From contig JAJSAI010000030.1 of the NCBI GenBank assembly GCA_024274695.1, positions 1 to 21,515 of the forward strand: 21,515 nucleotides of DNA. The letters run 5' to 3'. The stretch is from an archaeon (GTDB taxonomy: Archaea; B1Sed10-29; JAJSAI01). The translations under genes were made by a program, and so were the position numbers. The stretch's first letter is position 1. Each line of letters starts with the position of its first letter. The notes below the pieces were generated by a model that was not told the DNA's origin, ran no database searches, and worked only from the letters and a program-made list of their open reading frames with translations. This document shows positions 9,424 through 17,635 of the stretch, piece by piece.

Positions 9424-10980
9424 ATGACCCTTGAACTAACCGCCAAGAAAATGGACCTCTTCTCAGGAGGCAAGAAAATAATCGTGCTTAACAGTAAGGA
9501 CGCCGAGTTCTTTGACCTGAAGCCCATGGACAGGGTAAGGGTGTGGCATGATCACAAGAGCGTGATCGCGATAATAGACATTTCAGAAAAGTTCGTGAAA
9601 AAAGGAAGCGCAGGATGCTTTGAAGAAGTTTACAAGTCTCTCGGGCTGAAACAGGGTGACAAGATAAGAATAGAGCCCGTGCCAAAACCGGAAAGCGTGA
9701 GGCTCATCAAGAACAAGATGGACGGGCACGTTCTAACAAGCCAGGAAATTGACATGATAATCAGGGACGTGATGGAAGAAAAGCTTTCGGACATAGAGCT
9801 CACCGCGTTCATGACCAGCGTTTACATAAGAGGCCTTACAGACAACGAGACGGTCAGCCTGACGAAAAGCATAGTAAACTCTGGCACGACACTCAAGCTC
9901 AAGAAGGACATAATCCTGGACAAGCACTGCATAGGAGGAGTCCCCGGGAACAGGACCACCATGCTCATAGTCCCCATAATCGCCGCCTATGGTATGACTA
10001 TACCAAAGACAAGCAGCAGGGCAATAACAAGCCCCGCGGGAACCGCTGACGTGATGGAAGTGCTCGCTCCCGTCTCACTAAAAGAGGACGAGATAGAAAA
10101 AGTGGTGAACAAGGCGAACGGGTGCATAGTATGGGGAGGTGCGGTGAACCTAGCGGCCGCTGACGACAAGCTCATCAGGGTCAGAACACCCCTCAGCCTT
10201 GACCCGCACGGAGTGCTCCTCGCGTCTATCCTGGCCAAGAAAAAAGCGGTGGGCGCGACTCACGTTCTGATAGACATCCCAATAGGACGGGGAGCCAAGG
10301 TACCTGACGAAGAAAGCGCGAGAGAACTGGCCAGAGACTTTATGAGCATAGGCTCACAGCTTGACATGAGCATACACTGTATCATAACTCCAGGGTACGA
10401 TCCCGTGGGAGCAGCAGTAGGGCCCGCACTGGAAGCCAGAGAAATCCTGAGGATACTGTCAGGAGAAAGGGTGAGCCAAGACCTCAGGGACAAAGCAGTC
10501 ATCATGAGCGGTAGGCTCCTGAAAATGAGCGGAAAACTATCGCAAGAAGAAGGAGAGAAGATCGCCGAGAAGATGATCTCCTCAGGAAAGGCCCTCAAAA
10601 AACTTAGGGAGATAATAGAACTCCAAGGAGGAAACCCGAACGTTTCACCCGAGGACATAGAAGTGGGAGAAAAGAAAGTCACAGTAAAAGCCCACAGGAG
10701 CGGCAGGATACACTACATCAACACCAGGTCAATAACCGCGATAGCAAGAGCGGCTGGGGCCCCGAAAACAAAAGGGGCGGGAGTTTACTTGTACATAGAA
10801 AAAGGAGACAAGCTAAAGAAGGGACAGCCCATGTTCACGATCTACGCTGAAAGCGAGCAAAAGCTTGATGTGGCCCTGGACGTCATGCAGAAGATGCCTC
10901 CAGTAGAATTCGAGAAGGTGGTCCTTGAGGAAATGTCCTCAGAGAACGAGTTCAAGCCGTACATGCTCGAATTCCACTAG
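9424..10980 (+). CDS. deoA: AMP (nucleoside-monophosphate) phosphorylase
   Basis: Phosphorolyses AMP, CMP or UMP to base and ribose 1,5-bisphosphate, the first step of archaeal NMP salvage. The 518 residues show the archaeal form: an extra N-terminal beta domain (about 1-85, MDLFSGGKKIIVLN) before the thymidine-phosphorylase fold, the catalytic segment DKHCIGGVPGNRTTML near 166-181, and KTSSRAITSPAGTADVMEVL near 195-214, followed by a C-terminal alpha/beta domain with KAHRSGRIHYIN. I chose ATG 9424, which gives the family N-terminus and lies right after the DUF1805 stop; TTG 9403 would overlap it. It is the last gene of the operon. Its TAG shares the palindrome CTAG with the stop of the convergent amidohydrolase gene. 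Confidence 0.96.
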   Translation: MTLELTAKKMDLFSGGKKIIVLNSKDAEFFDLKPMDRVRVWHDHKSVIAIIDISEKFVKKGSAGCFEEVYKSLGLKQGDKIRIEPVPKPESVRLIKNKMDGHVLTSQEIDMIIRDVMEEKLSDIELTAFMTSVYIRGLTDNETVSLTKSIVNSGTTLKLKKDIILDKHCIGGVPGNRTTMLIVPIIAAYGMTIPKTSSRAITSPAGTADVMEVLAPVSLKEDEIEKVVNKANGCIVWGGAVNLAAADDKLIRVRTPLSLDPHGVLLASILAKKKAVGATHVLIDIPIGRGAKVPDEESARELARDFMSIGSQLDMSIHCIITPGYDPVGAAVGPALEAREILRILSGERVSQDLRDKAVIMSGRLLKMSGKLSQEEGEKIAEKMISSGKALKKLREIIELQGGNPNVSPEDIEVGEKKVTVKAHRSGRIHYINTRSITAIARAAGAPKTKGAGVYLYIEKGDKLKKGQPMFTIYAESEQKLDVALDVMQKMPPVEFEKVVLEEMSSENEFKPYMLEFH

Positions 10981-16377: not shown

Positions 16378-16617
16378 TCACTTGCCCTTCTTCCCAGGTT
16401 TTATGAAAACGTCCGCGATTATCTTTGCTATCAGCACGAGTATGAGAAGGTATGTTGGGTACCACCAGAGGTCGCTTCTGGGAGGCCCTGTCCTGGTGAA
16501 CACGAGCGTGTACCACTGGCCCATCATGAACACGAACAGAGTGTACCCGATGAAGAACAAGAGCATGTCCTTTACTGCCACCCAGATGTCCTTAACTTCA
16601 GGCCCTATTATCGCCAT
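16378..16617 (-). CDS. small two-helix membrane protein (79 aa)
   Basis: Unknown function. Two hydrophobic helices are visible, about 15-40 (VKDMLLFFIGYTLFVFMMG then QWYTLVF) and 53-72 (YPTYLLILVLIAKIIADVFI), with a polar, Pro-containing turn RTGPPRSDLWW between them and a basic tail KPGKKGK. By the positive-inside rule the C-terminal end is cytosolic. A TATA-like box at 16640-16649 is centred 27 nt before ATG 16617, pointing to a leaderless message. It lies between the RecA-like gene (38 nt away) and the shortened Bud23-like gene, and if the latter ended at its in-frame TAA at 16644 the two genes would be only 26 nt apart. No motif suggests a function. Confidence 0.72.
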   Translation of the reverse strand: MAIIGPEVKDIWVAVKDMLLFFIGYTLFVFMMGQWYTLVFTRTGPPRSDLWWYPTYLLILVLIAKIIADVFIKPGKKGK

Positions 16618-16639: not shown

Positions 16640-16649
16640 GTTTTTAACT
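16640..16649 (-). promoter_or_regulatory. TATA-like box for the 79-residue membrane protein
   Basis: Reads AGTTAAAAAC on the minus strand, centred 27 nt before ATG 16617; it contains the TAA that would end the full-length Bud23-like frame. Confidence 0.5.
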
Positions 16650-16730
16650 GTTTTCACAGCCTCTCTTCCCGGCTTTCAGGAGCACCCAGAAATTTTTTTC
16701 CTCGCGCGTTCCGGGCATGAAAACCCTTTT
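16644..16730 (-). other. in-frame downstream remnant of the Bud23-like C-terminus
   Basis: After the TAG that ends the Bud23-like gene, the same frame continues for 28 codons (KRVFMPGTREEKNFWVLL, then KAGKRGCENS) and stops at TAA 16644-16646. Counting the TAG as one residue, it fits the Bud23 C-terminal pattern GF-x8-P-x-[ST]-x3-K-x-F-aromatic-x2-L with no gap. I read this as the original end of the gene. Its last bases overlap the TATA-like box of the downstream small membrane protein gene. Confidence 0.6.
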
Positions 16731-17267
16731 CTACGCGCGGAATCCTTTTTTCTCAAACTCTCTTAGGACGATTTTCTCTTCCTCTCTTGTTTTAGGGTAG
16801 AACTGGAGTACCACGAGCCCGTTTCTTCTGAGGACCCTGTGGAATTCTCCTGCTATCCGCGAGTAGTTTTCAATAACCTCTTCCCTTGTCTTTCCAGTGA
16901 CCCACTGGAGTGCTGAGATGCACACGATCCCGTCAAAGGAAGAGTCAGGAAAAGGAAGGCTCCTCATGTCCGCTTTAACAACACTGAGGCCTTTTTGCCT
17001 GGCTATCTTGAGCATGGGCTCTGCTACGTCCACTCCCACGACGTCGTAGCCTTCTCTCTCAAGGACCATTGTGGAAAATCCTGTCCCGCAGCCAGCGTCC
17101 AGAATCCTTCCTTTTGACAGCCCGTGCTCCCTGAGGAGTGCCACCGCGTGCTCTGTCATTGCCTCCTGCACTCTCTTCATTCTAGAGCTTTTCTCGTAGT
17201 TCCGGGCAGTGTCTTCTGAAAAGTATACTTCAGGGTAGTAGTACTCTAGTTCCCAGGCTTTTTTCAC
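16731..17267 (-). CDS. Bud23-like rRNA methyltransferase, cut short by an in-frame TAG
   Basis: A class I SAM-dependent methyltransferase resembling eukaryotic Bud23, which makes 7-methylguanosine in the small-subunit rRNA. Family features: N-terminal PEVYFSEDTARNYEKSSRM, motif I LDAGCGTG, the acidic VGVDVAEPML, the Bud23-type ISALQW and the late strand VVLQFYP. At 178 residues it is short. The frame stops at TAG 16731-16733 after EKKGFRA, yet the next 28 codons still match the family's C-terminal strand. The break could be a nonsense mutation, a sequence error or readthrough; the SAM-binding core is intact. Its ATG overlaps the coiled-coil gene's stop (ATGA). The eukaryotic enzyme needs Trm112; no such gene is obvious nearby. 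Confidence 0.82.
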   Translation of the reverse strand: MKKAWELEYYYPEVYFSEDTARNYEKSSRMKRVQEAMTEHAVALLREHGLSKGRILDAGCGTGFSTMVLEREGYDVVGVDVAEPMLKIARQKGLSVVKADMRSLPFPDSSFDGIVCISALQWVTGKTREEVIENYSRIAGEFHRVLRRNGLVVLQFYPKTREEEKIVLREFEKKGFRA

Positions 17268-17635
17268 TGCCTCATCCTCTGGACTTCTGCCTTCAGCTCG
17301 TCCAAAGCCCTCTGGAGCTCCTCAATCCTCCGGCTTATGCTCTCAATATCTCCTGAGACTCCCTTCGCCACGGCCACCGTGGAGTAGGCCTGGGTGACCG
17401 GCTGAGGGTCCAGGGGTTCCTCCTCTTCCAGGGGCTTGGCGTCCCAAACGCTCTTAGGAGGCTTTATGCTCGGAGGAATAGATATCAGCTTCCTCTGCTT
17501 AGGCGCTCCGACAGGGGGCTTCCAGAAAAGCTTTTCCCTCTCAAGCTCTTTTTCCCTGTTCTTCTTCTGTACTTCCTGTATCCTCTGCTGGGCTTCCCTC
17601 TCGTACTTCGCTATTATTTCATTCATCAGGGCCAT
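17264..17635 (-). CDS. coiled-coil protein of unknown function (123 aa)
   Basis: Not recognised. It has two charged helical ends and a Pro-rich middle. Residues about 1-36 (MNEIIAKYEREAQQRIQEV and the following basic stretch) and 93-122 (SGDIESISRRIEELQRALDE onward) have heptad-like spacing of Leu and Ile and should form coiled coils; residues 38-80 are Pro-rich and disordered-looking (WKPPVGAPKQRK, PPSIKPPKS, EEEEPLDP). Such a layout suits an adaptor or small scaffold protein. A TATA-like box at 17657-17665, which contains the stop codon of the preceding gene, is centred 26 nt from ATG 17635. The stop overlaps the start of the Bud23-like gene (ATGA), so the two are made together. Confidence 0.75.
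   Translation of the reverse strand: MALMNEIIAKYEREAQQRIQEVQKKNREKELEREKLFWKPPVGAPKQRKLISIPPSIKPPKSVWDAKPLEEEEPLDPQPVTQAYSTVAVAKGVSGDIESISRRIEELQRALDELKAEVQRMRQ

Follow-up and report, generated by a model that had tools for sequence, protein, structure and literature searches.

Results

The analysed window, a stretch of 21,515 nt, was contig 25 of an archaeal genome of 825 kb in 32 contigs, which was estimated to be 91% complete. Based on TFB, the relatives of the source genome were Diapherotrites and Micrarchaeota MAGs (DPANN archaea). Genome statistics were taken from 487 kb of the 825 kb, and tRNAs, PylS, aRF1, uS13, ValRS and TFB were searched genome-wide. On the minus strand of the window, the frame of a putative Bud23-like class I SAM methyltransferase started with GTG at 17267 and ran for 178 codons (16734–17267) to the residues KKGFRA, where it met an in-frame TAG (16731–16733). 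The frame then stayed open for 28 codons (16647–16730, KRVFMPGTREEKNFWVLLKAGKRGCENS) up to a TAA at 16644–16646, which is probably the original gene end. This arrangement had been described in the original prediction, and its coordinates were confirmed. The upstream gene on the same strand (17264–17635) encoded a coiled-coil-like protein of 123 aa and overlapped the methyltransferase start by 4 nt. The next downstream gene, also on the minus strand (16378–16617), encoded a small membrane protein of 79 aa, and it started 26 nt past the TAA and 113 nt past the TAG. In the genome sample, the median gap between same-strand genes was 12.5 nt, and gaps of at least 100 nt made up 18%. The possibility that the gene is broken by a frameshift and not by a stop was rejected, as the other two downstream frames, judged by eye, were unlike the family.

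The methyltransferase body matched Pfam Methyltransf_11 (E 9e-23), and its translation contained the motif LDAGCGTG. The best PDB sequence matches were human BUD23 (E 4e-24) and yeast BUD23 (E 1e-22), and the PDB BUD23 match covered residues 10–201, which means that it crossed the TAG into the tail. The top five distinct PDB sequences were all Bud23 or Bud23-like (82–88 bits), with the next best at 61 bits. In a fold search with a low-confidence model, Bud23 structures took the top eight places. The family assignment of the original prediction was thus upheld, and by its sequence the interrupted gene is a Bud23-like methyltransferase. The C-terminal strand P-x-[ST]-x3-K-x-F-aromatic-x2-L was present, but the TAG parted it from the core. 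Strand and core would share an uninterrupted frame only in the case of an erroneous or read-through TAG. The basic C-terminal WBS_methylT extension of eukaryotic Bud23 (PF12589) had no match in the genome, and the archaeal relatives, judged by length, did not have it either. No Trm112 partner (PF03966) was found in the genome, estimated to be 91% complete.

Twelve archaeal homologs from 11 genomes were 33–45% identical to the body up to the stop. Of the 19 genomes of the phylum, 10 contained Bud23-like homologs, as did two other archaeal genomes. The family was patchy across DPANN archaea (L002–L012). A scan of the genome contigs with the protein gave no confirmed relative.

The column of the TAG was then compared with the homologs. 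In 12 of 12, a sense codon (E, G, K, R or D) stood at this position and was followed by the conserved hairpin, and none of the homologs ended at GFRA. The C-terminal hairpin and strand conserved in the family were represented by the first 18 codons of the tail. In an eight-position signature drawn from the homologs, the tail kept 8/8 positions (V3, P6, K12, F14, W15, V16, L17 and L18), and it was the only one to do so among 12,506 post-stop open 20-mers of the 487-kb sample. The original prediction had stated that the tail fits a six-position Bud23 C-terminal pattern without a gap. This held, since the pattern was matched 6/6 in this tail alone among the same 12,506 20-mers. The score of the tail against a profile including human and fungal BUD23 gave a shuffle p of 3e-4. 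These results indicated that the tail, as read from its sequence, is homologous to the final strand of the family.

The same prediction had regarded the TAG as the sole break in an otherwise conserved end. The TAG did cut a homologous strand, but the end was strongly diverged. The tail shared 0–4 of 20 identities with the archaeal relatives, which share 52% among themselves. The invariant Asp before the Pro was absent, and the basic RKRK run was gone too. With leave-one-out profiles, built without the scored sequence, the tail added 5.7 bits, compared with 18–44 for each relative. In contrast, the score of the body was normal (193.9 bits vs 124–246 in relatives), and no other lesion was observed.

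The collapse of identity at the stop, with 33–45% kept upstream of it, had made an older lineage-specific truncation our working view. In such a case the protein would long have ended at GFRA and would still work, and the tail would be a decaying remnant. This view was dropped because of the complete signature and the neutral-decay simulation. Among about 27,000 simulated tails that were still open, 0 combined such low identity with the full signature, in a test made somewhat favourable by signature sets that were picked from homologs with this tail in view. The codon usage of the tail also remained coding-like, at the 26th percentile of real C-termini and therefore within range. An older truncation is accordingly quite improbable. 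Since the signature was kept and simulated neutral decay never matched it, the tail seems to have been translated until recently. Most likely, it was translated under relaxed surface constraint until recently or is so today. Single-sequence AlphaFold2 models were made for both forms. The read-through form gained strands 176–181 and 193–199, with a pLDDT of 59.2 vs 52.4 for the stopped form, where both were poor, low-confidence models predicted without an alignment.

Amber recoding of the TAG was evaluated. An amber-encoded residue, either pyrrolysine or another, had been proposed among the explanations, and the only point in its favour was that the frame continues beyond the TAG. The PylS N-terminal domain had no match in the genome (91% complete). 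PylS-C gave weak matches only, far below the cut-off, as it did in all 14 control genomes. None of the 41 tRNAs found genome-wide had a CUA, UUA or UCA anticodon, with all anticodons read, and the anticodon loops of the intron-bearing tRNAs were read by hand. aRF1 was intact, with its NIKS, YxCxxxF and GGQ motifs. TAG was also a common terminator, ending 34 of 206 crude gene calls (~16%; 207-kb sample). TAG terminators are usually rare in archaea that use pyrrolysine, with Sifarchaeia as an exception at 21% (PMC9723677). In addition, the relatives carried ordinary and variable residues at the TAG column. Amber recoding was thus rejected, and neither an amber-encoded residue nor an amber-suppressor tRNA was borne out; the probability left to an amber residue is very small. 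Among the tRNAs, non-canonical introns were observed in Gln-UUG (L084:6721–6825) and Lys-UUU (L087:150–260), both in the D-loop region, and in His-GUG (L088:180–330), apparently in the T-loop, all read by hand.

A same-frame coding scan of the 487 kb identified five further in-frame stops in conserved genes that were intact on both sides. The valyl-tRNA synthetase gene (ValRS) had a TAA in place of the conserved Gln in SRQR (L075:7272–7274, G000:C13). TFB had a TAA (L082:9592–9594, G000:C29) in a column where 56 of 80 further relatives had Glu and most of the others Gln or Asp. In uS13, a TAA (L085:656–658, G000:C32) replaced a residue that is K, E or T in relatives. The family matches of GlmS and of an aminotransferase spanned a TAG (L071:5185–5187, G000:C5) and a TAA (L073:5189–5191, G000:C9), respectively. 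TFB, ValRS and uS13 each had one orthologous match genome-wide; a second, weak ValRS match was a paralogous synthetase. No stops were found in the genes of relatives among 20 ValRS, 16 uS13 and 21 TFB matches and 80 more TFB loci. TFB, ValRS and uS13 are essential in any archaeon. Because they are essential and single-copy, their stops must be either wrong bases or codons that are read through.

Two candidates, at L079:15767 and L073:3415, were rejected as in-frame stops because they look like normal gene boundaries. An LdcA-like C-terminal fragment with a TGA at 10076 (L091:9926–10291, G000:C4) was not counted, as its N-terminal half is missing; this LD-carboxypeptidase-like fragment is a probable remnant. 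The same contig carried a CRISPR-like array (L091:4–1253) with 19 identical repeats ATTTCAATCCTAACAAGGCACTATTGAAAC at a spacing of 66–71 nt.

Including the TAG of the Bud23-like gene, the six stops were 4 TAA, 2 TAG and 0 TGA. Uniform random substitution predicts TAA, TAG and TGA at 0.35, 0.44 and 0.22, and 4.2% of substitutions create stops. The observed mix was compatible with random base errors. With 4.2% of substitutions making stops, six stops in ~372 kb of coding sequence correspond to ~4e-4 errors per base. For an assembly with good coverage this rate would be high, and only thin coverage of a MAG makes it plausible. Some public MAG contigs from these groups have a stated coverage of 1–4. 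No clear frameshift was found in conserved genes by a coding-potential scan that was noisy and too permissive. The codons flanking the stop were identical in three of the six cases (AGA-TAA-AGA, GCA-TAA-GCA and GAC-TAG-GAC), with no insertion compared to relatives; this is probably a coincidence. In ValRS (L123), the conserved Ile at residue 397 was changed to Arg, three codons before the TAA. These two radical changes within 11 nt could be a local cluster of errors.

Tolerated readthrough was weighed against these data. In this case, some TAA and TAG codons would be misread by near-cognate tRNAs, such as those for Gln, Glu and Lys, and full-length products would be made. The in-frame TAA codons of TFB, ValRS and uS13, which are single-copy informational genes with conserved sequence on both sides, were consistent with this. 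The replaced residues were also polar and compatible with near-cognate reading, namely Q in ValRS, mostly E or Q in TFB, K, E or T in uS13, and E, G, K, R or D in the Bud23-like gene. However, no suppressor was present among the 41 tRNAs of an assembly that may lack ~9% of the genome, and aRF1 was intact. TAA and TAG served as normal terminators too, and no common context was evident around the stops. Tolerated readthrough of the Bud23-like TAG is therefore improbable, though it stands above an older truncation. Slightly less probable is a genome-wide state of ambiguous TAA and TAG, including those of TFB, ValRS and uS13, in which both codons are read by near-cognate tRNAs and yet still terminate. 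To our knowledge, such an ambiguous stop-codon state is undescribed in archaea.

Discussion

Based on the above results, we consider that the TAG at 16731–16733 is a single wrong base in the metagenome assembly, with a probability of about one half. The living archaeon would have a sense codon at 16731–16733. The full-length Bud23-like methyltransferase would be ~207 residues long and would end at the TAA at 16644, and the beta hairpin that closes the methyltransferase fold would be made of its last residues. Since other genes of this assembly that are essential and single-copy also contain stops, a shared non-biological cause is the simpler explanation for the TAG in the Bud23-like gene. We infer that all six stops arose in the same way, through base error and not through biology.

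Several points counted against a base error. The tail was an outlier among its relatives in both bits and identities, and this is not accounted for by a stop that is purely spurious. The gene is dispensable, as its presence in about half of the genomes of the phylum suggests, so that a genuine loss is readily conceivable. The error rate is high for a well-covered assembly. In addition, conserved genes gave no clear frameshift in the noisy scan.

Part of this evidence pointed to the main rival of a base error, a recent and real nonsense mutation. The archaeon itself would carry the TAG, the enzyme would end at GFRA as a truncated or dead protein, and the tail would be a fresh untranslated remnant. 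The patchy distribution of the gene, which marks it as dispensable, was consistent with such a loss. The tail had also evolved faster than that of any relative, as in a gene under relaxed selection, and it was still recognisable. However, the body was as conserved as those of the relatives and carried no further lesion. Stops of this kind in essential single-copy genes were also explained more simply by a shared cause outside biology. A recent nonsense mutation is thus unlikely, at clearly lower odds than a wrong base, and ahead of the other alternatives. Both a base error and a recent nonsense mutation had been among the explanations of the original prediction, and they remained the best branches.

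A lone in-frame stop would be ordinary. The notable part was that stops were found in single-copy essential genes of the same assembly. Either a published genome contains base errors at a rate that can mislead gene calling, or stop codons are read through in this organism.

The locus was compared with known systems. It resembles the pyrrolysine-recoding archaea, such as Sifarchaeia (PMC9723677), in that a frame is open across a TAG in a gene with a methyltransferase fold in an archaeon. However, those archaea have PylS, PylBCD and tRNA-Pyl, and here PylS and tRNA-Pyl were not found. Unlike in their case, the interrupted gene is not a methylamine methyltransferase.

The nearest PDB sequence over the whole length was that of eukaryotic Bud23/WBSCR22, an 18S rRNA m7G methyltransferase (PDB 4qtt/4qtu, 6g4w and 7wtw); this match covered residues 12–199 with an E of about 4e-24. 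The archaeal protein has in common with it the N-terminal PE-x-YF-x8-Y-x-x-(S)-SRM-x-x-Q region, and the archaeal locus shares the final P-x-[ST]-x3-K-x-F-aromatic strand. In contrast to Bud23/WBSCR22, the archaeal gene has a TAG within the last hairpin. A 2017 review reported that Bud23 homologs could not be identified in archaea (PMC5372719), and given this negative the Bud23-like family of DPANN archaea may itself be of interest. The tail of the DPANN relatives is well conserved as I-D-x-P-x4-[KR]-x-[KR]-K-x-[FY]-[LI]-V-[LM], unlike the one observed here. Up to the stop, these DPANN Bud23-like methyltransferases have the same length and motifs as the protein of this locus.
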